From assembly GCF_009711165.2 (NCBI RefSeq), contig NZ_WMID02000051.1, positions 1 to 22,885 of the forward strand: a stretch of 22,885 nucleotides of DNA. Direction: 5' to 3'. This document shows, in pieces, positions 8,464 through 22,447 of this stretch (position 1 is its first letter; each line of letters opens with the position of its first letter). Below the pieces are notes generated by a model. It worked only from the letters and a program-made list of their open reading frames with translations, did no database searches and had not been told where the DNA came from. Both the position numbers and the translations under genes were made by a program. Source of the stretch: Flavobacterium sp. MC2016-06. Lineage in GTDB: Bacteria > Bacteroidota > Bacteroidia > Flavobacteriales > Flavobacteriaceae.

Positions 8464-8502
8464 AAAAAGGAGAAAAAACCACAAGATTTTTTCTCCTTTT
8501 TT
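8464..8502. terminator. Terminator at the end of the eight-gene run
   Basis: The stem AAAAAGGAGAAAAAA pairs with TTTTTTCTCCTTTTT around the loop CCACAAG. On the minus strand it lies about 30 bases past the last gene of the run and is followed by a T tract; it is symmetrical enough to work both ways. Confidence 0.82.
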
Positions 8503-8532: not shown

Positions 8533-9504
8533 TTAATTATTAATTTTTTCCTCTGAATTATCTATTGGAGTATTTGGATCGTGCATTATCATTTTTGCAA
8601 TATCAATTTTGCGCATAAATACTACGCCTTGTTTTTCTTTTGCATATTTTATAAATTCTTCCATTGCTCTAGTTATCGCTGGCGTTCCTCCAATTCTGTC
8701 GTGCAGACTAATAGACATCATGCGGCGTTTTGTTGCACCTTCTTCATACAATTGATCAAATTCCATTTTTAATTGCGTTAAAAACTGGTCAGGACTCCAA
8801 TGTCTTCCTTCGATGTTTAAAATATCGTTGTTACGAAGTGTATAAGGCATTACAACAAAATTCTTTCCATTTACTTTTGTAATAAAAGGTTCATCGCGGC
8901 TCAAATCATCAATATGATAAACGTAACCCAATTGCTGTAAAACTTTTAAAGTATTTGGACTTCTGCGCAGCCAATTGGCATTATAACCCACTGATTTTTG
9001 CCCTGTAATTTTTTCCACAGCATCAGTTCCCGCTTTTACAAACTGAAGTTCCTGATCGTAATTCATCTTGTATTGATCGTCCCAAACCATTCCATGAGCT
9101 GCAATCTCGTGTCCGCCAGCTGCAATAGCTCTCGCAACTTCAGGATATTTTTCGGCCGCCGCACCAACAACATGAGAAGTTACTTTGATGTCATATTTTT
9201 TCCATAAATCCAGCATACGGTAAATACCTTCTTTGGCTCCATATCGATACCAGCTATCTACTACAGGATCTGGCTGACCTTCGGGCAAAGTTATTTTTGG
9301 AAAAGGACTATCTGCTCCCGCTGGCTGTGCTCCCGATTCAAATTGCATTGATACCGAAATAACAAGTTGTGCTCCATTTGGCCAATGGCTTTTTGAAGCT
9401 GTATTTTTGGCTTCCGAACTTGTCTCTTTTTCTTTTGAATTAGTACAGGCTGTTAATAAGGATAAAAAGAGCATGCTAACCAGTACTTTTTTAATTGTTT
9501 TCAT
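8533..9504 (-). CDS. Lipoprotein of the polysaccharide deacetylase / PuuE-like allantoinase family
   Basis: 323 residues with a lipoprotein signal (LLTAC, Cys20), so probably membrane-anchored. The NodB-type fold runs from about 45 to 310. It lacks the usual TFDDG motif: the first strand reads VISVSMQFESGAQ with Glu56, as in PuuE-type proteins. Other PuuE-like landmarks are GGHEIAAHG (His132, His137), RRSPNT at 180-185, and PYTLRNND at 220-227. PuuE is described as a metal-independent allantoinase, while relatives deacetylate glycans, so the reaction could be hydrolysis of a cyclic amide or a deacetylation. It is the last gene of the run, after an 82-base gap containing a hairpin, so it may be less or separately expressed. 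The presence of a YtcJ-type amidohydrolase in the run favours amide chemistry, which is inference. Confidence 0.85.
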   Translation of the reverse strand: MKTIKKVLVSMLFLSLLTACTNSKEKETSSEAKNTASKSHWPNGAQLVISVSMQFESGAQPAGADSPFPKITLPEGQPDPVVDSWYRYGAKEGIYRMLDLWKKYDIKVTSHVVGAAAEKYPEVARAIAAGGHEIAAHGMVWDDQYKMNYDQELQFVKAGTDAVEKITGQKSVGYNANWLRRSPNTLKVLQQLGYVYHIDDLSRDEPFITKVNGKNFVVMPYTLRNNDILNIEGRHWSPDQFLTQLKMEFDQLYEEGATKRRMMSISLHDRIGGTPAITRAMEEFIKYAKEKQGVVFMRKIDIAKMIMHDPNTPIDNSEEKINN

Positions 9505-9545
9505 AATTAATTTTTTTAAATTTATACAAATGAAAATCTAGCTCT

Positions 9546-9577
9546 TACCTGAAATCTTTACACAGTTCTTTCAGGTA
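9546..9577 (-). other. Intercistronic hairpin
   Basis: Nine-base perfect arms TACCTGAAA (9546-9554) and TTTCAGGTA (9569-9577) enclose a 14-base loop between the SnoaL-like gene and the deacetylase-type gene. No T-run follows on the minus strand, so an mRNA processing or stabilising structure fits better than a terminator. Confidence 0.5.
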
Positions 9578-9586
9578 GACCTTTGG

Positions 9587-10069
9587 CTATTTCTCAAAAG
9601 CCTTCTCTAGAATTGGAGTTTGTTCGTAGAGGCAGAATTTGGTTATAAGGCCATTTTCTACTTTAAAGTGTATTGCAACTAACATTGAAAAACTTTTACC
9701 GCTAGATTTGAACTCCCTTCCTAGAACTAAAAAAACAGCAGCTTCATTTCCATCAACCATAAAACTTTCGGGTTTTACGACATCTTTTCCTTCATTAAAA
9801 TAAGAAAATAATGTTTTAAAAACGGCTGGAATTTCAGATCTTTTAGTGCGCTTTCCTGTCCATGGGAATTTTTTTGATTCGAAAATATACCAGTCCACAT
9901 TTTCTGCTACAACGCTTGCTATTCTTTCAGGGTCTTTTTCATCAAAATATTTAAAGAAAGTCTCTACTGTTTTTCTAGTCTGGTTCTTTATATCTTCTGG
10001 TGTCTGAGCAGTTTGGGCACTTATTAAATTGAAAATCAACAATAGTCCCAAAATAAATATCTTTTTCAT
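9587..10069 (-). CDS. Exported SnoaL/NTF2-like protein
   Basis: 160 residues with a signal peptide (1-19, ends ISAQ). The mature part has the cone-shaped NTF2-like pattern: a long N-terminal helix (TRKTVETFFKYFDEKDPERI), then VDWYIF...PWTGKRTKRSEIPAVFKTLFSYF, then three to four long beta strands ending KFCLYEQTPILEKAF. It fits SnoaL-like proteins, which may be small hydrolases, isomerases or binding proteins for hydrophobic molecules. No catalytic residue can be assigned with confidence. It follows the porin gene by 30 bases in the run, so it acts in the same, probably periplasmic, process. A ligand-binding role is as likely as an enzymatic one. Confidence 0.8.
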   Translation of the reverse strand: MKKIFILGLLLIFNLISAQTAQTPEDIKNQTRKTVETFFKYFDEKDPERIASVVAENVDWYIFESKKFPWTGKRTKRSEIPAVFKTLFSYFNEGKDVVKPESFMVDGNEAAVFLVLGREFKSSGKSFSMLVAIHFKVENGLITKFCLYEQTPILEKAFEK

Positions 10070-10099
10070 AATGGATAATTTAAGAATTAATAATTTGTT

Positions 10100-11467
10100 T
10101 TAAAATTTAACCTGCATCGTTACACCTGTAAAAAACATATTTTTTCCCGCTCCAGAAGCTTTAAGAAAATCGCCTGCCTGAAACCAAGTTGCTTCTACAC
10201 GAAAATAAAGATATTGATTTGGCTGATAGATAATTTCACTTTCCAGCTGTTTACCAATTTCTTTTTCGTCTGTAGTATCTCCAGGATAAATTAGAGCCGT
10301 ATTTGGCGCATATATTCCATCTTGGCTGCTGTATCTCCAAAACATATCATAATCAATTACCCATTCGAGATTTTTGGCTAATTCAAAATTTAATGAAGGA
10401 TGAAAGTCAACAAGATTGGACGGACCAATTACCGAAGCTAAACCAAAATAAGCACCTCGCGGAAACAATGGATTAAATGTTCCTAAAGTAGTATCGCCTT
10501 TTGTTTTATCACCGCTGATAAGTTCGAATTTAAAACCAAGTTCAGGATGTAAAAAAACCGATGTAAATCTGTAACCGGCATTGATAGAAGCAGTCCAAGC
10601 CTTGATATCTTTAGAAGCAACATTACCAAATTGATATAAAGCTTCGCCATCGTATCGCCAGTTTCCAAATTTTCCCCAAATTCTTGTGCCTACAGAATGT
10701 CGTTGCTCTAATCCTTTTGCATCATCAAAATTGGCGTTTGCTCTTTTATAACCTAGATAATATAGATCGATATTTCGTAGAAAAGGAACTTTATTAATTA
10801 CGAAATAACTTCCCCAAAATTGTCTTTTTTGATTCGAATAATCATCAAAAATGCCATCTTGCGCCACTACGTAATGACTGTAAAAAGCATCAGCATGATA
10901 ATTTCCAAAATTCATTAATGCTTTTACGGCATCAAAAGACTGGCGATTATTTGGCCCATCACGTACGGCAACCAAACGCTGAGAACCGTAATTCAGTTCT
11001 TGTCTTCCAGCTCTAAAAGTCAGCTGACTGTTTTTGTCTGATAAAACATTAATGTCAATAAAACCCTGATGTACTTCAAGCGGGTCGCTTTCTACGGGAC
11101 TTGGATCAATTCTTCCGCTGGCATTACTGCTTTGTAATTGTAAAAAAGCCCGAAAGTATTTGCTCGCGTGAAAATCGGCGTGAAGTAACAAACGGTTTAA
11201 GATGTAACCGTCATTATCAACAGGATCGTCTCCCCATTTTTCGTTTTTTGCATAAAAATATTGATACCGAATCTCTCCTCCAAAACTTAAGTATGTTTTC
11301 CCCGAGGAGGAGAGCGGCATGTATTTTAGGGTTTTATACCAGTTGTTTTTTGTTGTATCTTTTTGTAAAACTGAATAATTTTCGTCAAAACGCATCGATT
11401 TAAAATCTGGGTAGGATTGCGCATGAAGGCCAAAAGAGATGATAAATAATAAAATAATTTTTTTCAT
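10100..11467 (-). CDS. Outer-membrane porin of the Alginate_exp family
   Basis: 455 residues with a signal peptide ending near LHAQS (1-18). The body is a beta barrel with alternating aromatic strands. The segment GRQELNYGSQRLVAVRDGPN followed by NRQSFDAVK (about residues 158-187) is highly typical of the Alginate_exp group (AlgE-like outer-membrane channels). Despite the family name, most members sit in clusters for small organic acids or aromatics rather than alginate, and no alginate gene is present here. The ATG lies two bases after the stop of the metallo-beta-lactamase-fold gene, so translation is probably coupled. I infer that it lets the run's substrate cross the outer membrane. The terminal sequence VTMQVKF ends in Phe, as expected for barrel assembly. 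Confidence 0.9.
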   Translation of the reverse strand: MKKIILLFIISFGLHAQSYPDFKSMRFDENYSVLQKDTTKNNWYKTLKYMPLSSSGKTYLSFGGEIRYQYFYAKNEKWGDDPVDNDGYILNRLLLHADFHASKYFRAFLQLQSSNASGRIDPSPVESDPLEVHQGFIDINVLSDKNSQLTFRAGRQELNYGSQRLVAVRDGPNNRQSFDAVKALMNFGNYHADAFYSHYVVAQDGIFDDYSNQKRQFWGSYFVINKVPFLRNIDLYYLGYKRANANFDDAKGLEQRHSVGTRIWGKFGNWRYDGEALYQFGNVASKDIKAWTASINAGYRFTSVFLHPELGFKFELISGDKTKGDTTLGTFNPLFPRGAYFGLASVIGPSNLVDFHPSLNFELAKNLEWVIDYDMFWRYSSQDGIYAPNTALIYPGDTTDEKEIGKQLESEIIYQPNQYLYFRVEATWFQAGDFLKASGAGKNMFFTGVTMQVKF

Positions 11468-11469
11468 GG

Positions 11470-12492
11470 CTATTTGCCTAAACTGTTTTTCTTGATATCG
11501 TTGTAAGCATTTGGAAGATTGAAATTGTAATGAAGCCAGTTAAAAAGAACATAACCTTTATCAAATTCTTTCATTGTAATCGTCGCTTTTGCCTGTTCTA
11601 AAGTTTCTCCTTTTTTAACAGCATCTTCTACATTTTGCTTTAAAGCATTTACATAATCAATGGTGAATTTTATGCCTGCTTTATTGGTAATTCGGCCATG
11701 ACCAGGAACTACAACATCATTGTCGCCAATCATATCATAAATTTTTTGAAGGTTTTTAACGGGTTCTAGAAAATAACCGTCAAATAACCACGGAATTGCT
11801 GGACTTTCGGCAATAAAAGGATTTCCTGCCCACAATACATTTTTGTCACTATCTTTAAGATAAACAAACAAATCTGCTGGAGACTGCGCTGTTCCTGTAT
11901 TGATGATTTCTACAATTTTACCACCACCCAAATCTAGTTTTATACTTTGGTTTAAAGCAATTGTAAGATCTGCGGGACGATAAACACTTTGCTCGATCCC
12001 GCGATCCTTTCCAAAAAGCATAATCATAAACTGTTTGATATTCTCGTAATTTTTAGAGAGATTTTCTTTGCAGAATTCATTTTGAATTAAAACTGTTTCT
12101 TTCGGAAGTAAATAATTTCCGAAACAGTGATCACCGTGATCGCTTGTGTTTACAGCATAAATAATAGGTTTTGGCGTTACTGAACGAATTAATTTTAATA
12201 ATTGATCATACAATCTTTTATTCAGCATGGTTTCGATTAATAAAACGCCTTTATCGCCTACAATGAATCCTGCTGATGTTGCCTGTGGAATTCCTTTTGC
12301 AGTTTCTGTTTCGGTTGTTGAAGGTGAAACCGCGTAAACATTAGCCGAAATTTTATGCAATTGAAGTGTTACTTTATTAGCATCCCAAATAGGAACTTCG
12401 GGCGGTAACGGAAATTGAGCGTGCATTTGCTGTGCCGAAAAAAAGGCAATTATAAACAGCAAAGCGACTAGAATATTTTTATGATTTTTCAT
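11470..12492 (-). CDS. Exported metallo-beta-lactamase-fold protein with incomplete metal motif
   Basis: 340 residues; signal peptide 1-25 (ends MHAQ), so periplasmic. The MBL fold runs from about 45 to 270 with a helical C-terminal tail. The canonical HxHxDH motif reads SDHGDH at 117-122, so the first His is Ser117. The usual GHTxGD region reads GTAQSPAD (200-207) with no His, and the bridging Asp after the LxxG strand is Asn224 (WAGNPF). His119, Asp121, His122 and the final VPGHGR His265 remain. This could keep one metal (Asp121/His122/His265) and lose the other. Some MBL-fold subgroups have a similar non-canonical HGDH motif, so it may be a distinct hydrolase rather than a dead enzyme. Genes before and after belong to the same run; upstream is a 202-base gap filled with repeats, downstream the porin gene overlaps closely. 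Confidence 0.87.
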   Translation of the reverse strand: MKNHKNILVALLFIIAFFSAQQMHAQFPLPPEVPIWDANKVTLQLHKISANVYAVSPSTTETETAKGIPQATSAGFIVGDKGVLLIETMLNKRLYDQLLKLIRSVTPKPIIYAVNTSDHGDHCFGNYLLPKETVLIQNEFCKENLSKNYENIKQFMIMLFGKDRGIEQSVYRPADLTIALNQSIKLDLGGGKIVEIINTGTAQSPADLFVYLKDSDKNVLWAGNPFIAESPAIPWLFDGYFLEPVKNLQKIYDMIGDNDVVVPGHGRITNKAGIKFTIDYVNALKQNVEDAVKKGETLEQAKATITMKEFDKGYVLFNWLHYNFNLPNAYNDIKKNSLGK

Positions 12493-12510
12493 GATTATTT
12501 TTTTATGATT

Positions 12511-12680
12511 TTTTCACGCAGATTAAACAGATTAAGCGGATTTTTTAAAAGCTTATATTTTTTTATCTGCCTAATCTGCTAAATCTGCGTGAAAACTTTT
12601 AATTTTTTGACAAGGATTGAACGTTTCGTAAGAACAAAAAATCCGTTTTTATCCGCTCAATCCGCGTCATCCGTGTGCAA
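12511..12680. repeat. Dispersed-repeat block inside the run
   Basis: This block fills the 202-base gap between the amidohydrolase and MBL-fold genes. Its left part is an imperfect inverted repeat of about 30 bases (12511-12541 and 12562-12594) built from TTTTCACGCAGATT-type sequence. The right part (12639-12680) has four ATCCG words at 9-10-base steps. The AAATCTGCGTG core also occurs in the array at 17521-17760. No promoter consensus or T-tailed terminator is clear, so transcription may read through. Confidence 0.8.
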
Positions 12681-12694
12681 TCTTTTTTAGTTTT

Positions 12695-14458
12695 TTATTT
12701 CTGATATCCTCCAAAATATTTCACTGGAGACCAATCTGGAATTACAGCTGGGATTTCTGGACTCAACTGTTTGTATTCCGCGGAAGCGTAAACAATTTTA
12801 CCATTTACAATTGTCATAACCGATTCGATGTTTCGAACGTCATCTGTTTTAATAGAAAAATAATCATCAGATAAAATTGCCATATCGGCATACATTCCTT
12901 TTGCAAGTTTTCCTTTTACTTTTTCTTCGCCAGAAAACCATGCGCTTCCAGAAGTGTACAATTGCAGTGCTGTAAATTTATTTAAAGTCTGATCTTCTGG
13001 CCAGAACTGCATACCACCAATTGTTTTTCCGGTAAGCAGCCAATGCAGTGACATCCAAGGATTGAAAGTTGAAATACGTGTTGCATCTGTTCCAGCACCA
13101 ACAGGAATCCCCATAGAAAGCATTTTTTTGATAGGAGGTAACTGTGTTTTTGGAGTTCCGTATAGTTTGGTGTACAATTCGCCTTGATAATACATTCTAA
13201 ATTGTACTGCAATTCCGCCTCCAAGTTTTTTTACACGTTCTAGTTCTGGATTGGTAATGGTTTCGGCATGGTCAAAAAACCAGCGTAAACCATTAAACGG
13301 AGTTTCTTTGTTTACTTTTTCAAAAACATTAAGCATTCTGTCAATCGATTCGCCGTAAGTAGCGTGAAGACGAAAAGGCCATCTGTTTTTGACTAATAAT
13401 CTGATAATTGGTTCTAAATCAGATTCCATTTCATCAGATAAAACAATTCTTGGTTCTAAGAAATTTTCAAAATCTGCAGCCGAAGCTACTATATTTTCTC
13501 CAGCACCTTCTTCGACATAACCGTTTGGAATAATAAGATTATCATTTTTATTGACTTGAGTTTCTGCAACCCATTTCTCATAATCGGCTAATTCTTTTCC
13601 TTTTTGCTGTGCGAATAAATAATACGAAATACGAAGACTCAATTTATTCTGCTTTGCCAAATCTAATGAAGTAACATAATCAGCAGGATAATTTTGACTT
13701 CCGCCGGCAGCGTCAATAATACTAGTAAGCCCGAAACGATTTAGTTCATGATTGTACTGTATTGTACTGTTGATTCTTTCTTCGGGAGTAAGTTTTGTTG
13801 TTAATCCCATCGTCATATAAATCGCTTTTGGAGTTTCTTTGGCATACATTAAACCAGTCAAATTTCCGTTAGTATCCTGCTCCAAAAGACTTCCTTCGTA
13901 TTTAGTATCTTTGGTATAACCCAAAACTTCGATTCCTTTTTTATTAAGGAAAGCTTTCCCATACAAATACGTTATAAATACAGGTTTATCTGGAACTGCA
14001 GCATTGATTTCTTCGATTGTTGGCTGTCTTTTTTCTTCAAACTGAAATTCGTTCCAGCCGCCAATTACTTTAATCCAAACGCCGTCTGGAGTTCTAGCAG
14101 CTTGTTCTTTTAGCATTTCCATAGCGCGTTTTAAGGTTTTTACACCGTCCCAGCGCAATTCAGAATTATAATTTAAGCCTTCGCGAATAACATGCATGTG
14201 ACTGTCATTAAGTCCTGGAATTACTGTTTTTCCTTTGGCATCTACTAATTTAGTTTCGGGAGATTTAAAAGCAGCGAGAATGTTTTTGTCGCTTCCTGTT
14301 TCCAGAACAATTCCGTTTTTCATGGCAATTGCTTCAACAAATTCGTTTTGTTTCTGCATGGTAGCAATTTTGCCATTATAAATAATCAAATCTGCTTTTT
14401 GCTGTGCCTTTGCTAAAAAAAGGACAAAGAAGAATGATAGTATGAATACTTTTTTCAT
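12695..14458 (-). CDS. Exported YtcJ-type amidohydrolase (Amidohydro_3)
   Basis: 587 residues with a signal peptide (1-19, ends AKAQ), placing a usually cytoplasmic fold in the periplasm. The small beta domain (KADLIIYNGKIATM) leads to the first metal motif PGLNDSHMHV (His87, His89). Later landmarks are RLHATYGE (His364), FFDHAET (His397) and GAGTDATR (Asp458), and then the C-terminal return of the beta domain (KGMYADMAILS...IVNGKIVY). YtcJ relatives include N-substituted formamide deformylase; the family hydrolyses amide or related C-N bonds. Around residues 311-320 the sequence is PNGYVEEGAG, where many relatives have a Lys in a VK...DG motif; I could not align this rigorously. It starts 20 bases after the SDR gene. 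Substrate unknown; an N-acyl or formamide-like compound is a reasonable guess. Confidence 0.9.
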   Translation of the reverse strand: MKKVFILSFFFVLFLAKAQQKADLIIYNGKIATMQKQNEFVEAIAMKNGIVLETGSDKNILAAFKSPETKLVDAKGKTVIPGLNDSHMHVIREGLNYNSELRWDGVKTLKRAMEMLKEQAARTPDGVWIKVIGGWNEFQFEEKRQPTIEEINAAVPDKPVFITYLYGKAFLNKKGIEVLGYTKDTKYEGSLLEQDTNGNLTGLMYAKETPKAIYMTMGLTTKLTPEERINSTIQYNHELNRFGLTSIIDAAGGSQNYPADYVTSLDLAKQNKLSLRISYYLFAQQKGKELADYEKWVAETQVNKNDNLIIPNGYVEEGAGENIVASAADFENFLEPRIVLSDEMESDLEPIIRLLVKNRWPFRLHATYGESIDRMLNVFEKVNKETPFNGLRWFFDHAETITNPELERVKKLGGGIAVQFRMYYQGELYTKLYGTPKTQLPPIKKMLSMGIPVGAGTDATRISTFNPWMSLHWLLTGKTIGGMQFWPEDQTLNKFTALQLYTSGSAWFSGEEKVKGKLAKGMYADMAILSDDYFSIKTDDVRNIESVMTIVNGKIVYASAEYKQLSPEIPAVIPDWSPVKYFGGYQK

Positions 14459-14478
14459 GGTATTAAATTTGAATTTTC

Positions 14479-15321
14479 TTAGGTAGTGTAATCGGTTGAT
14501 AATGTGATTTCTTTGTTTTGTTCAATTCCTGAACTTAACATTTCAACTTTATAATTGGCATATTGAAGTGCATCTGAACCTAATAATAAACGTAACGGTG
14601 GTTCTGCCAATAAAGCTGTTTTTATAATAGTAGATGCTACTTTAATTGGATCTCCAATTTGATTTCCTGGAATATCGTGTTGATGTTTGCGTCTTATTTC
14701 TGTAAGTTCTGTATAAGCATCAATTGTATTTTTTGGGCTGATAACAGATTCGACACTTAAAAATCCAGTGCGAATATATCCTGGCTCAATTACAATTACT
14801 TTTAATCCAAAAGGCTTTACTTCCTGATCTAAAGCCTCAGATAATGCTTCGACTGCAAATTTGGTAGCGCAGTAAATTCCCCAGCCAGCGCCGGCGATTA
14901 ATCCAAAAACAGAAGAAAGATTAATAATTGTTCCCGATTTTTCTTTTCTCATAAAAGGTAAAACCGCTCGAGTAACATGTAATAATCCGAAAACATTAAT
15001 ATCAAAATTTGCCTGAACTTCACTTGCCGACGATTCTTCAATACCTCCAACTATACCATAACCTGCATTATTGATTAGAAAATCTATTTTGCCAAAATGG
15101 TTAATGCCTTCGTTTACTGCTTTATTTACACTTTCTTCATTGGTAATATCCATATCAAGCGCAAGAAGATGTGCCGAATCGATATTCAAAGCCTTTTTAA
15201 GTTTCTCGCTGTTTCTTGTAACAGCAATTACATTATTTTCGTTTTGGAGTAATTGTTTTACCAATTCTAAACCGATGCCTTGAGAGGCACCGGTAATAAA
15301 CCATGTTTTAGAAGTTTTCAT
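14479..15321 (-). CDS. Short-chain dehydrogenase/reductase (classical SDR)
   Basis: 280 residues without a signal peptide, so cytoplasmic. The Rossmann nucleotide-binding motif TGASQGIG is at 10-17; DMDIT at 56-60 contacts the adenine ring in the family; NNAG is at 84-87; INLSS with the catalytic Ser is at about 133-137; and YCATK gives Tyr150 and Lys154. Arg36 after the second strand (VTRN) suggests NADP(H) preference, a weak inference. It reduces or oxidises an alcohol/carbonyl group; the substrate is not predictable. It begins nine bases after the preceding lipoprotein gene, so it is tightly coupled within the run and probably handles the product after import. Confidence 0.92.
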   Translation of the reverse strand: MKTSKTWFITGASQGIGLELVKQLLQNENNVIAVTRNSEKLKKALNIDSAHLLALDMDITNEESVNKAVNEGINHFGKIDFLINNAGYGIVGGIEESSASEVQANFDINVFGLLHVTRAVLPFMRKEKSGTIINLSSVFGLIAGAGWGIYCATKFAVEALSEALDQEVKPFGLKVIVIEPGYIRTGFLSVESVISPKNTIDAYTELTEIRRKHQHDIPGNQIGDPIKVASTIIKTALLAEPPLRLLLGSDALQYANYKVEMLSSGIEQNKEITLSTDYTT

Positions 15322-15330
15322 GACTGTTAT

Positions 15331-16350
15331 TTATTTAGATAGAAAGAATGCAAGTAAATCTTTTTGTACCTGCGCAGTATTCTCTTGAACAAGCCAGTGT
15401 CCTGATCCTGCAATTTTAGATTCTGTTACGTTTTCGGCAACTAGTTTTGAGTGATCTTTAAGGAATGCTGCTGCAAAATATTCGCCGCCCATTGCTAATA
15501 ATGGCATTTTTAATTTTTTCTTCATCAAAATTAAATTGTCTTTTCCATCCTGATCAAATGCACCAAACCATTTAAAAGCAGAAGTTGTACCGCCTTCAAC
15601 AGCATAAGCTCTAATAAATTCTGTTGTTTCTTCAGCAGTAAATGGATCTTTTACGTGCCCAACAACTGGCCAGAAATTAGTTAAGAATTCTTTTTCTTTT
15701 CCTTTCACAATATCACCAGAAGCTGGCCAAGCAAAGAAACCAAACCACCATGCAGATCCTTTTACATTAGACCAAACTGGTTCAATTCCAGGTAAAAGAG
15801 CATCCATTAATGCAATTTTGGTTACACCTTCACCGTATTGTGCGGCGTATGCATAAGCGACCATAAGTCCGATATCATGCCCAGCCAAATTGATTTTTTT
15901 ATACCCAAGCTGATTTACAAGCTCGTGAATATCTGATGCCATTGTTTTTTTGTCATAACCGCCTTCTGGTTTGTCAGACTCGCCAACACCTCTTAAATCG
16001 GGAGCGATTATGGTAAAATGTTTAGAAAGTTCTGGTAAAAGTCTGTTCCACATGTACCAGTTTTGTCCAAAACCGTGTACTAATACTAACGGATCTCCTT
16101 TTCCGCCAATAACGTAGTGAATTTTGATTCCGTTTACGGTTGCAGTTGCATGTTTAAAATTTGCTGGTGGGTTTGCTGGAGCGACCGATGCAGCTTCAGT
16201 TTCTGCAGGTTTAGTTTCTGCTGCAGGAGTAGTTTCGTCTGCTTTTTTATTGCATGAAACTAAAGTCAATAATAAAAGTCCAAAAGCTAAAAAACAATAT
16301 ACTTTGTTTTTGAAATTTAAAAGTGCGGGATAAAATAAAAGGGTTTTCAT
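15331..16350 (-). CDS. Epoxide-hydrolase-like alpha/beta hydrolase lipoprotein
   Basis: 339 residues. A lipobox (TLVSC, Cys33) is followed by a low-complexity Ala/Glu/Pro/Thr linker (about 36-62) that would hold the enzyme off the membrane. The hydrolase domain has HGFGQ at 92-96 (oxyanion hole) and the nucleophile elbow GHDIG with Asp159 instead of Ser, plus the catalytic His318 in GSGHW. An Asp nucleophile marks the epoxide hydrolase / haloalkane or haloacid dehalogenase branch of the fold; the Trp-rich cap (about 192-215) fits that group. The two cap tyrosines of epoxide hydrolases could not be placed with certainty, so dehalogenase activity cannot be ruled out. Second gene of the run, 40 bases after the first. 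Confidence 0.9.
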   Translation of the reverse strand: MKTLLFYPALLNFKNKVYCFLAFGLLLLTLVSCNKKADETTPAAETKPAETEAASVAPANPPANFKHATATVNGIKIHYVIGGKGDPLVLVHGFGQNWYMWNRLLPELSKHFTIIAPDLRGVGESDKPEGGYDKKTMASDIHELVNQLGYKKINLAGHDIGLMVAYAYAAQYGEGVTKIALMDALLPGIEPVWSNVKGSAWWFGFFAWPASGDIVKGKEKEFLTNFWPVVGHVKDPFTAEETTEFIRAYAVEGGTTSAFKWFGAFDQDGKDNLILMKKKLKMPLLAMGGEYFAAAFLKDHSKLVAENVTESKIAGSGHWLVQENTAQVQKDLLAFFLSK

Positions 16351-16390
16351 AATGTAAAAATTTAATTAATTGATTTAATACTATAATTGG

Positions 16391-17191
16391 TTATTGTAAA
16401 CTTTGTGTTGGTAATTTGGAAATCCAGTCTTGTATGTAAACTGCAATTTCCTGCCAGCCGGGCTGATTTAAAACAAAATGATTTCGTTCTGGAAAAACCT
16501 TGAAATCGGTAATAGAATTTTTGTCTGAGTATTTTTTGTAGTTCGAATAATTCAGAGATTCGGGAATAGTATGATCTGTTGAACCTGCAATGAGTAATAA
16601 AGGTTTGTGAGGAAGTTTAAAATCTACTTTTGCTACTGAAGTTATGGTGTCGCGAACAATTAATTTAGATTCTGGAATTGCAGATTCGCAGTATGCTTTG
16701 TCCTGCCATTCTTCTGGCATTCCGTTGGTAAAAGCATATTGCCATTGACTAAAACTCATTAAGAATGTTTTTTTAGTCGAAGTAAAAAATCCAAGCGGTC
16801 CCCAGCCAGCTTTTAAGAAAGAGAATTTAAAAGTCATAATGCCTTGCGGAGGAACAGAATGTACAGCAATTGCAGATGCAGCTAGATTGCGCTGTAAAAG
16901 AATTTGCGCTATTAAACCCCCAATAGAATGGCCAATAATTATAGGTTTGTGAGGAAGTTTTTTTGCGATATCTTCAAAATATGCAATTAACTCTGCTAAT
17001 CGCATGCTGGCTACCTGTGGATCAGGATGGCGCTGGCGAAGAACTTCTGCCGGAGCATCTTTATAAGGCCATGCGGGAGCAAGTGTTTTAAATCCTTTGT
17101 TTTCGAAAAAGGTTTTCCATTCGTTCCAGCAATTATTGCTTACAAATGCACCTGTAATAAAAAGAATGGTAGTCGGGTTTTCAGTTAGCAT
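16391..17191 (-). CDS. Alpha/beta hydrolase (serine nucleophile), first gene of the run
   Basis: 266 residues, no signal peptide, so cytoplasmic. The fold starts with the strand TTILFITGAF; the nucleophile elbow is GHSIGG with Ser89; the catalytic Asp is probably Asp206 (AGSTDHTIP) and the His is His238 (ERNHFVL). This is an esterase/lipase-like triad, unlike the Asp nucleophile of the next gene. The reaction is ester, thioester or lactone hydrolysis; substrate unknown. It is the first gene after the putative sigma-54 promoter, with a leader of roughly 65 bases. Confidence 0.9.
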   Translation of the reverse strand: MLTENPTTILFITGAFVSNNCWNEWKTFFENKGFKTLAPAWPYKDAPAEVLRQRHPDPQVASMRLAELIAYFEDIAKKLPHKPIIIGHSIGGLIAQILLQRNLAASAIAVHSVPPQGIMTFKFSFLKAGWGPLGFFTSTKKTFLMSFSQWQYAFTNGMPEEWQDKAYCESAIPESKLIVRDTITSVAKVDFKLPHKPLLLIAGSTDHTIPESLNYSNYKKYSDKNSITDFKVFPERNHFVLNQPGWQEIAVYIQDWISKLPTQSLQ

Positions 17192-17267
17192 AATAAACGT
17201 TTTATTGTTATGCCAAACTATTTACTAAAACCAGACCTTTTTGTTAAGTTATTGATTATTAGTATTT

Positions 17268-17284
17268 TGAATAAGTTGTGCCAG
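17268..17284 (-). promoter_or_regulatory. Candidate sigma-54 (-24/-12) promoter of the eight-gene run
   Basis: On the minus strand the site reads CTGGCACAACTTATTCA. The -24 part TGGCAC is perfect. At the required 10-base spacing from GG the -12 dinucleotide is TC rather than GC; overall 14 of 17 positions fit YTGGCACGNNNNTTGCW. No good TAnnTTTG box was found between it and the first gene. The neighbouring operon encodes a sigma-54 activator, which supports the reading. Confidence 0.5.
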
Positions 17285-17299
17285 TTTTTGAACAACTAT

Positions 17300-17319
17300 A
17301 TTTCGTCGATAAACGAAAT
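17300..17319. promoter_or_regulatory. Inverted repeat upstream of the -24 element
   Basis: Arms ATTTCGT (17300-17306) and ACGAAAT (17313-17319) around CGATAA begin 15 bases upstream of the putative -24/-12 site. A related ATATCGTTT lies at 17332-17340. The half ATTTCGTCG differs by one base from ATATCGTCG in the palindrome upstream of the kinase gene (22301-22309). It is a candidate activator-binding site; inference. Confidence 0.35.
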
Positions 17320-17346
17320 TGAAGAGACTGAATATCGTTTTTTTTT

Positions 17347-17430: not shown

Positions 17431-17521
17431 TTGTCATTCTGAGGTACGAAGAATCTTCGATGCAAAATCGACAAAGATTGCGGAGTTACTTGCGAAGATT
17501 CTTCGTACCTCAGAATGACAA
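17431..17521. repeat. Perfect 29-bp inverted repeat
   Basis: Arms 17431-17459 and 17493-17521 are exact reverse complements (left arm begins TTGTCATTCTGAGGTACGAA). They enclose 33 bases. TGTCATTCTGAG-type sequence is, to my knowledge, a common dispersed repeat in Bacteroidota. The right arm is also the first unit of the tandem array that follows. Confidence 0.93.
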
Positions 17522-17807
17522 TACTGTGAAAAAAATCTGCGAAAATCTGCTTAATTCGCTAAATCTGCGTGCTAAAACTTTGTAGAGTTACTTGTGAAGA
17601 TTCTTCGTTCATCAGAATGACAATACTGCGAAAATCTGCTTTATCCGCTAAATCTGCGTGCTAAAACTTTGTAGAGTTACTTGCGAAGATTCTTCGTTCC
17701 TCAGAATGACAATACTGCGAAAAAATCTGCTTAATCCGTTAAATCTGCGTGCTAAAACTTTGTGGAATTACTTGTGAAGATTCTTCGACTTCGCTCAGAA
17801 TGACAAG
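17483..17807. repeat. Imperfect tandem array of ~90-102-bp units
   Basis: The block GAAGATTCTTCG...CAGAATGACAA recurs with starts at 17493, 17595, 17684 and 17775 (spacings 102, 89 and 91). The sequence between copies repeats too (CTGCGAAAA, CGCTAAATCTGCGTGC, TAAAACTTTGT). The last copy carries a variant GACTTCGCTCAGAATG. There is no credible ORF; any short frame here reads through repeats. Confidence 0.9.
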
Positions 17808-17993: not shown

Positions 17994-19949
17994 CTAAAAG
18001 TGGCTTCTCTTTATTCCAAGTTTCTGCATTCTTGAAGCAAGTGTAGTAGGAGGAAGCCCTAAAATTTCAGACGCTCCGCCGGCACCTCTAATTCTTCCAT
18101 TGCATTTTTCGAGAACATTAATAATATGTTCTCTTTCGTTTTCTTGAATGGTTTTAAAATACCATTCTGTAGACGTATTGTTTATTTTGATTTCATCAAA
18201 AGCAGGCAGTGGAATATGTTCAATAGTATCGGTTTTTGCCAAAAGAATACTTCTTTCTATAAGATTTTCGAGTTCTCGAATATTCCCAGGCCATTGATAA
18301 GATAAAAGACTTTTTAAGGCACTTTCTGATATCTCACTTACATTTTTACCAATTTTATCACTGTAAATAGCAATAAAATGTCGCGCAAGAAGACCAATAT
18401 CTTCTTTTCGTTCTCGTAAAGGCGGTAATTGTATCGGAAATACATTTAATCTGTAATATAAATCAAGACGGAAACGGCCTTCAGCAACTTCTTTCTCCAA
18501 AGTACAATTTGTCGCAGCAATTATCCTTACATTTACTTTTATGGGAATATTTCCTCCAACGCGTTCAATTTCTTTTTCCTGAATAGCGCGAAGCAGTTTG
18601 GCCTGCATTTCAAGAGGCATATCGCCAATTTCGTCTAGAAATAAAGTTCCGTTATTGGCTTGTTCAAATTTACCTATTCGTCTTTCTGTAGCGCCGGTAA
18701 AAGATCCTTTTTCGTGCCCAAATAATTCAGATTCAATCAAACTAGGGGGAAGGGCAGAACAGTTAATTTTGACAAAAGGGTGCTTATTTCTTGGTGAAAG
18801 CTGTTGAATGCTAGTCGCAATACTTTCTTTTCCAGTACCGCTTTCTCCCGTAATTAATACCGTTGTGTCTGCTGGCGCGACCTGAATGATATGATCGAAG
18901 AGTTTTAACAATGTAGGGCTTTTTCCAACAATTCCTTCAAAACCAAATTTCTGTGTATTTTTTTCTGTTGTAATGTTTTTAAAAATTACTTCTTTTTGAT
19001 TTGATTTTTTCTCACGACTTAAAATATTCTCAATTGCATAAATCAAAGGTTCTTGAAGTCTTTCGCATAAGCTCAGATCGCTTTTGTTGTAAATATTAGA
19101 CTGCCTGCTAAAAAAGGATAAATAAAAACCGCCATTATCATTAATCTTCAAAGGAACTGGTAATATGAGATTTGATTTCATATTCATGCAGTTAGCAATT
19201 AATTTTTTTATGGGAAATTTTTCACAGACTTTAATAAAATCCTGATCATTATAAAATACAAATTTGTTTTCAGATTCGATTTTACTTTTGCGTTGCAATT
19301 CTTTGATCTCAGATTCTTTTAATGCTGTTATATTTTGTAATTCTTCCATTCCAATTTTCTGATACTCATGCAGACCTGTTCTTGAGTAACCTATTGCTTT
19401 GTATGGTACATTTTCATTTGTTGCAAAAACGCCCATCACCAAATCAAAAGAAATAAGAGATTGCAATGCAGTAGTAATATTCAACACACGATCATCCCAT
19501 GTTCCGTTTTTTTCAACCATTACTTTTAGTTGTTTCTGAAACAATTGTTCTTTTCTAATAGATGATTCAAGTCCGTGCTGCTGATGGTATTCTGCAATTT
19601 CAATTGTTATCAGTAAATCTTTTTCTCGAAACGGCTTAACTAAAAATCCATACGGATGTGTAGATTTGGCTTTGTTGAGTACTTCTTCATTTGAGTTAGC
19701 AGAAAGATAAATAAAAGGAATGTTGTCTTCCTTGAGAATTTCAGCAAGGTCAATACCTGTTTCTTTCCCCGAAAGGAAAATGTCTAATAAGACTAATTCT
19801 GGTCTTTCCTGCGCAATATAATATTTAGCATCTGTTACTGATCTCGCCATTCCGGTAATAGAATGTCCAGCTTTTTTTAGCATCAATCGTAAGTGATTGG
19901 CTTCTATAAATTGATCTTCAACAATGAGAATTTTTAGAGACTTTCCCAT
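17994..19949 (-). CDS. Sigma-54-activating response regulator, FhlA-like C-terminus
   Basis: 651 residues, 18 bases after the kinase gene. Receiver domain 1-125: Glu11/Asp12, phosphoacceptor Asp56, Ser83, Lys105. A middle region of about 145-310 looks GAF-like. The AAA+ domain is at 337-575: Walker A GESGTGKE at 368-375; sigma-54 contact loop GSFTGA at 415-420 in place of the usual GAFTGA; Walker [11 protein letters not shown] at 434-443; arginine-finger region [10 protein letters not shown]. The C-terminal Fis-type helix-turn-helix at 605-648 ([30 protein letters not shown]) closely resembles the FhlA end. Known role of the family: ATP-driven opening of sigma-54 promoters. I infer that the kinase next door phosphorylates it and that its target is the eight-gene run. 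A receiver added to a GAF-AAA-Fis body combines NtrC-like and FhlA-like inputs. Confidence 0.94.
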
Positions 19950-19967
19950 AATTATATGTTTATTTTA

Positions 19968-22217
<2,250 letters not shown>

Positions 22218-22295
22218 CTTCTGTTAATTAAACTGGCATACGAAGATATTGATTAAAAATGCAGTTAATTTAAAAATGCTCAATTTTGATTGGCA

Positions 22296-22307
22296 ACGAT
22301 ATATCGT
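22296..22307. promoter_or_regulatory. 12-bp palindrome upstream of the kinase operon
   Basis: ACGATATATCGT is a perfect palindrome about 80 bases upstream of the kinase ATG, extended to the right by CGTTT. Its right half ATATCGTCG resembles ATTTCGTCG upstream of the eight-gene run, so it may be a shared binding site of the response regulator. Confidence 0.35.
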
Positions 22308-22447
22308 CGTTTGGATTTTTTTATTAAAAAATTTTGCTGATTCGAAAAATTTTAAAAAATAAGAAAATTACTTCGAATCCTAAGTATAGATAAAGATTCG
22401 GGCTTCTAAGTGCTAAAATTTAATAGAATTATATTCAATTTTAAGAA

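Follow-up and report, generated by a model that had tools for sequence, protein, structure and literature searches.

Conserved operon of exported hydrolases and a porin in Flavobacterium sp. MC2016-06 with a predicted kinase and sigma-54 activator circuit of its own

Two-component systems such as AtoSC and ZraSR combine a regulator made of receiver, AAA+ and Fis domains with an adjacent sensor kinase, and control a neighbouring operon. Sigma-54 promoters have GG at -24 and GC at -12 with ten bases between, and the L1 loop of sigma-54 activators has the consensus GAFTGA. In two other reports, a His-Tyr pair defines the Cif-like enzymes and the motif HGXP the epoxide hydrolases, morB belongs to the cif operon, which epoxides induce through CifR (PMC8244358), and Asp116, His117, Asn216 and His257 are the catalytic zinc ligands of chlorothalonil dehalogenase, Chd (PMC12784990). 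Proteins related to several of these are encoded in a 22,885-nt stretch of Flavobacterium sp. MC2016-06 (contig NZ_WMID02000051.1, positions 1 to 22,885 of the forward strand; hereafter the window), which is part of a 6.17-Mb genome and is numbered contig C51 here. Eight co-oriented open reading frames (ORFs), A to H, occupy the minus strand of the window from 17191 down to 8533. Judged from sequence, A–H is a real unit, conserved together with the neighbouring genes of a sensor kinase (K) and a response regulator (R). It is rather likely that the operon is switched on by this pair of its own and that its exported enzymes remove a reactive compound.

The families of the encoded proteins were assigned by Pfam. 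Gene A (16391..17191) encodes a cytoplasmic alpha/beta hydrolase (Abhydrolase_6) with the triad Ser89-Asp206-His238, and gene B (15331..16350) encodes a lipoprotein alpha/beta hydrolase with Asp159 as nucleophile and a lipobox, LVSC, recognized by eye. Gene C (14479..15321) codes for a short-chain dehydrogenase/reductase (SDR; adh_short), gene D (12695..14458) for an exported YtcJ-type amidohydrolase (Amidohydro_3), and gene E (11470..12492) for an exported metallo-beta-lactamase (MBL)-fold protein of the Chd kind (Lactamase_B). The remaining three products are an Alginate_exp outer-membrane porin (F, 10100..11467; PF13372, 238 bits), an exported SnoaL-like protein (G, 9587..10069; SnoaL_2) and a PuuE-like lipoprotein of polysaccharide deacetylase fold (H, 8533..9504; Polysacc_deac_1). 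Sec or lipoprotein signals were judged by eye to be present at six of the eight N-termini. Upstream on the same strand lie R (17994..19949), with receiver, sigma-54 AAA+ and Fis helix-turn-helix (HTH) domains, and K (19968..22217), a TPR sensor kinase with HisKA_2 and HATPase domains. The initial annotation had named the same eight families, six export signals, and an adjoining activator and TPR kinase, all of which were borne out, as were the nucleophile positions Ser89 and Asp159, invariant in 29 of 29 and 35 of 35 aligned sequences respectively, duplicates included. A hairpin of 17 pairs with a T-rich tail (8464..8501, minus strand) is the likely end of the operon; over the whole region, neither terminator-type sites (7 versus 6.6) nor sigma-70 promoter consensus scans showed enrichment over shuffled sequence.

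Orthologous loci were collected by means of gene D, for which 41 of 199 genomes of the genus gave a match at E <= 1e-100. Seventeen of the 199, the own genome included, stand apart with a D identity of at least 81%, and the 16 others were taken as loci. To these were added 13 named loci (L004-L016) with D at least 73% identical. Duplicates L092 and L098 were removed and L020 was omitted because it lies on the same contig as L085 and would have been counted twice, so that the ortholog set comprised 28 loci, including the window. The other named D homologs among L017-L083 were excluded as orthologs, since their D is 50-62% identical and A and E occur in none. Among these, relatives of D at 58–62% identity are found in Duganella, Massilia and other Betaproteobacteria (L017-L019, L021-L024, L076) without A, E and F of the cluster; such a distribution could reflect transfer of D between phyla.

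The genes R-A-B-D-E-F are consecutive in 19 of the 28 loci, and A-B-D-E-F in 21. The window differs from this order solely in the inserted SDR gene C, and an SDR between B and D is found nowhere else in the set. Within the fetched stretches B is present in all 28 loci, A and F in 27 each, E in 26 and R in 24, while H was found in 19, G in 11, an SDR in 10, and an old yellow enzyme (OYE) and an isochorismatase-like protein (the latter family named by eye) in six each. The kinase beside the cluster belongs to family f7 in 19 loci and to family f15 in three. Rearranged orders with R divergent from A occur in L013 and L014 (Mucilaginibacter) and L015 (Dyadobacter). Two loci found later, L135 from the same genus and L136 from another family, retain A-B-D-E-F-G-H with K and R adjacent. 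E is rare, being present in four of 395 phylum genomes, and A at 72% identity or more was found in four of 296 order genomes, the same four as E, with a fifth genome holding only a 47% match; both samples are broad and they overlap. A gene order confined to this strain, which the initial annotation had held to speak against its operon, was thus not what was found.

Versions of one palindrome lie upstream of both A and K. Before A there are two boxes on the minus strand, box 1 with core ACGATATTCAGT (17327..17338) placed 32 bp upstream of box 2 with core ACGAAATATAGT (17295..17306). Before K lies a copy of the palindrome CAACGATATATCGTTG with one mismatch; here the operator palindrome CGACGATATATCGTTG (22294..22309, minus strand) has its first base 92 nt before the start codon. 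With zero to two mismatches, CAACGAWATWTCGTTG occurs 33 times in the 28 loci (558,298 bases) and never inside an ORF, compared with 0.67 occurrences per pass over shuffled sequence. This consensus was derived from the same 28 loci in which the copies were counted, and the genus scan and L136 are therefore fairer tests. The exact 16-mer was found in 11 of 198 Flavobacterium genomes, eight times at K of the cluster, once before a short K-like ORF and twice within unrelated ORFs, and its reversed-pattern control in two of the 198. L136 also carries the exact 16-mer, with the core 120 nt upstream of the A start, and the palindrome persists in the rearranged loci L013 and L015. Exact copies of the shorter core ACGAWATNTMGTTG number three in the own genome, one before A, one before K and one within an unrelated ORF. 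This co-occurrence suggests that R is the protein that binds the palindromes.

The single K-like ORF outside a cluster (L111, 9180-9876, in genome G254) is 198 aa long and follows an exact operator at 100 nt, with neither R nor operon in the fetched stretch; it is possibly a decayed remnant. In the HTH of R (17994-18143), the residue after TL is small (A, N, G or S) in 26 of 27 proteins of the R family (f6) and Ile in one. A paralogous class of regulators has Tyr or Phe at this position in 14 of 14 proteins, which makes it a candidate specificity residue for the two kinds of operator arms.

The predicted promoter of A–H is AGGTCTGGTTTTAGT (17224..17238, minus strand), a GG-N10-GT element with a predicted start at about 17212. 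The first base of the operator core lies 67–71 nt upstream of the GG of a GG-N10-G element in 25 of 26 orthologous promoters, and the exception, L015, fits by eye in the alignment if its second box is used. Among the divergent orthologous promoters the same spacing is found in five of six (shuffled mean 0.13). In the 20 close loci, mean column conservation is 0.93 for AGGTCTGGTTTTAGT, 0.90 and 0.91 for boxes 1 and 2, 1.00 for TTTGGCATAAC and 0.69 for the spacer. The initial annotation had placed the -24 element at TGGCAC (17278..17283, minus strand) and the start near 17257. That hexamer has a conservation of 0.43, is present, at one or other of two positions, in three of the 26 upstream regions and has no GC ten bases on, and it was judged not to be the promoter. 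TTTGGCAT (17217-17210) was also rejected as a -24 element because a -12 partner is absent and the start would fall at the ATG. A sigma-54 operon under the neighbouring kinase and activator, as had been proposed, agrees with the gene order, the operator at both promoters and the near-constant spacing; the promoter site and the start have had to be moved.

The sigma-54 AAA+ domain of R is complete (PF00158, 241 bits), its L1 loop reads GSFTGA, and RpoN is encoded in the own genome (PF04552, 175 bits, contig C21). A sigma-54/two-component circuit for A–H is well supported by linkage, palindrome specificity, spacing and the presence of RpoN. The K-R pair resembles AtoSC and ZraSR in its domains, adjacent kinase and neighbouring operon, but differs from them in the TPR HisKA_2 kinase, the palindrome ACGATATATCGT, the spacing of about 69 nt and the target genes. 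Downstream of the palindrome, 20 of 23 sites carry a TAnnTT(C/T)G box, and most of these sites lie before K. Since the box resembles the -7 box of the Bacteroidota primary sigma factor, TAnnTTTG, K and R are probably transcribed by the primary sigma factor with feedback by R. The gene set, operator and spacing are undescribed in the open-access titles and abstract openings searched, a literature that omits most subscription journals, and the single open-access paper found for sigma-54 and RpoN together with Bacteroidetes and Flavobacterium deals, by its listing, with another subject.

Paralogous clusters with YtcJ, DoxX, isochorismatase and Dps-like genes are found in Flavobacterium (L100 and others among L114-L133). 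They share with the window a kinase-regulator pair (34% and 62% identical in L100), the operator core and its spacing, a D paralog (about 52%) and often an F paralog. They differ in their other enzymes and in the operator arms, which are TTTACG...CGTAAA instead of CAACG...CGTTG. Nineteen palindromes were obtained from 27 paralogous loci. Two that fell within ORFs were dropped, as were three that had no plus-strand gene within 500 nt, and 13 of the remaining 14 promoters have the same distance from operator to GG (shuffled mean 0.10, maximum 2 of 14). The distance from core to ATG in the fitting promoters ranges from 78 to 474 nt, and in some the GG-N10-GC is complete (TTGGCATTTTGTTAGCA in L100, for example). 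With at most one mismatch, the own genome has three sites of the paralogous operator TTTACGAWATWYCGTAAA (control 0). The third of these, unlinked and found by the palindrome alone (L134:9604), precedes MaoC, hydrolase and MsrA genes and is followed by GG-N10-G at +70. The paralogous clusters also contain genes for an MhqD-like esterase (155.8 bits, where the cut-off is 325), for pirin, DoxX and ferritin-like proteins and for MsrA, and the operator was shown for some of these, not for all. Paralogous kinase/sigma-54 systems with the same promoter spacing also precede genes for CPO-like hydrolase, isochorismatase-like, ferritin-like and YtcJ proteins.

Among the enzymes, E has the clearest relationship, being closest to chlorothalonil dehalogenase by sequence and by model. 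The best match among solved structures is Chd (6uxu, 233 bits; the next, 34), and a model of E (pLDDT, a confidence score, 79) has 6uxu as its best fold match, with TM (a structural similarity score) of 0.82/0.92 and 40% identity. Alignment with 6uxu places the Chd zinc ligands D116, H117, N216 and H257 at D121, H122, N224 and H265 of E; the first three are conserved in 26 of 26 sequences, and H265 in 25, with one gapped. E therefore shares with Chd of Pseudomonas sp. CTN-3 the MBL fold and the four catalytic zinc-ligand positions, but not the structural-zinc residues H143 and D146, which align with N148 and N151 (N148 being invariant in the alignment), and E belongs to a conserved, regulated operon. 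Relatives of E number 748 at 1e-30; those named among the best 120 are called MBL-fold, metallo-beta-lactamase or glyoxylase-like hydrolase.

The closest solved structure to B is the Cif-like enzyme Cif-like 1 (7jqx, 196 bits), followed by the 'putative hydrolase' entries 7clz and 6kxh, which are presumably the epoxide hydrolase Alp1U. An Alp1U mutant altered at two ring-opening-type positions reportedly stays active. D159, D183 and H318, which supply the Asp-acid-His triad, are each present in 32 of 32 sequences, as are W202 and F262. The latter two occupy the aligned ring-opening positions, where Cif-like enzymes have His-Tyr, and the motif HGFG stands in place of HGXP in 35 of 35 sequences, duplicates included. 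B was rejected as an epoxide hydrolase, as both the ring-opening pair and HGXP are missing, and by eye the motifs of fluoroacetate and haloalkane dehalogenases were not seen in it either. B nevertheless resembles Cif in its triad and predicted export, and some loci of the cluster add an OYE gene. Trp202, Phe262 and HGFG together point to a Cif-like relative with unpredicted chemistry. The regulators also differ, that of the window being a two-component sigma-54 pair and that of cif a TetR repressor. A second B copy is found in a run of B2, SDR and TetR genes in L012 (1645-4032), L094 and L096. In L136 (3565-4970) an SDR-TetR pair lies beside K-R, recalling the TetR control of cif-type genes.

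The Ser-Asp-His triad of A is conserved in 29 of 29 sequences. The model of A is of low confidence (pLDDT 64) and bears a weak likeness (TM about 0.6) to the folds of esterases and monoacylglycerol lipases, and for this reason no substrate can be read from the fold. The motif residues of D (HxH, GTDA and others) are kept in 30 of 30 sequences, duplicates included, and F has no solved relative by sequence or profile search. The label 'PuuE-like' for H, also used in the initial annotation, holds as a loose likeness (3cl6, 158 bits), but a true PuuE allantoinase was rejected, as H scores 171.9 bits against an equivalog cut-off of 424.6. The start of this protein appears by eye to be lipoprotein-like in the window and twin-arginine-like in L135 (16692-17648) and L136 (16156-17115), both read on the reverse strand of the fetched stretch. 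Palindromic repeat elements fill part of the long gap between R and A (17473-17805), including three 89-nt copies at 17537-17805, and the gap between D and E contains a 31-nt inverted repeat (12511-12595) of similar sequence.

In the proposed mechanism, K, a membrane TPR kinase, would sense a signal and phosphorylate R, which would bind the paired palindromic operators (core ACGATATATCGT) with their first base about 69 nt upstream of the -24/-12 GG. Bound R would then make RpoN polymerase transcribe A–H, and feedback on K-R would come from the operator copy that precedes K next to a promoter of the primary-sigma type. Porin F would admit a small organic molecule, the exported B, D, E, G and H would hydrolyse it in or on the periplasm, and A and C would finish the process in the cytoplasm. 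A–H probably serves to remove or use a small, reactive organic compound, and the most likely purpose would be removal of a reactive electrophile that is epoxide-, quinone- or haloarene-like. Electrophile detoxification is favoured over nutrient catabolism because the closest characterized relatives act on reactive compounds, because genes for OYE, SDR and isochorismatase-like proteins appear repeatedly as add-ons, and because the paralogous clusters carry the genes listed above for them, from the MhqD-like esterase to MsrA.

That a small organic compound is taken up and broken down, as the initial annotation proposed, is possible, and a catabolic operon under the same circuit is the less probable but still plausible reading. 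A nutrient such as an ester, amide, lactone or allantoin-like compound would enter through F and be hydrolysed for carbon or nitrogen. A porin accompanied by several exported hydrolases, the resemblance of H and D to amide hydrolases, and the frequent service of sigma-54 activators in nutrient use would all agree with this. Against it, Pfam found no inner-membrane transporter and no assimilation enzyme (CoA ligase, ring-cleavage enzyme) among the eight genes, G and H are missing from many loci (present in 11 and 19 of 28), the closest solved relative of E dehalogenates a toxic fungicide, and the recurring add-ons are those named above. It is very improbable that the hydrolases are unrelated and share a neighbourhood by chance or hitchhiking. 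The SDR position, G, H and the downstream genes do vary among loci, but the core order is kept in 19 of 28 loci and in the two later ones, the rearranged cores of L013 and L015 still have the palindrome, A (at least 72%) and E occur in the same four genomes, and conservation outside the strain refutes such an accident.

It is also unlikely, though less so, that the operon is transcribed with the primary sigma factor while R represses or modulates it, GG-N10-G being an unrelated conserved leader. The -12 element is GT rather than GC; TTTGGCATAAC, the most conserved block, is slightly like the -7 box; the TAnnTT(C/T)G box follows the palindrome at most sites, mainly before K; and L135 and L136 break the strict spacing. 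Yet paralogous promoters show the same spacing at widely varying distances from their start codons, some of them have GG-N10-GC in full, and R has a complete sigma-54 AAA+ domain. Several observations also weigh against activation by K-R and electrophile detoxification as proposed. GT replaces GC at -12 in the window and most orthologs, GC being found among the orthologs only in L096 and L097. Three sites were seen only after the spacing rule had been read; L134 fits strictly, and L135 (GG-N11-G) and L136 (TG-N10-GT) narrowly miss it by eye. Many of the 26 orthologous and 14 paralogous promoters are close relatives, so that their counts are not independent. With one mismatch, the short operator pattern was not enriched in the own genome (29 matches versus 56 for the reversed pattern), no palindrome turns up in L014 even at two mismatches, and R is absent from the fetched stretch in four of 28 loci. 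Epoxide chemistry is doubtful, as B lacks the ring-opening pair, and detoxification is argued from relatives and paralogs.

Tentatively, the Bacteroidota may have a family of dedicated TPR-kinase/sigma-54 pairs, each using a palindrome variant of its own at a near-fixed promoter distance, that control envelope hydrolase-porin operons for the detoxification of natural antimicrobials of epoxide- or haloarene-like type. If true, this would provide a natural setting for the chlorothalonil-dehalogenase fold and for a hydrolase with Trp/Phe instead of the epoxide-opening pair. From the locus an operator, a promoter and a spacing rule can be read with which targets are predicted, and in one genome they led to the unlinked paralogous MaoC/hydrolase/MsrA site. 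The locus also shows a relative of a pesticide dehalogenase as part of a regulated operon that is conserved among bacteria, so that the natural function of this relative becomes open to testing.

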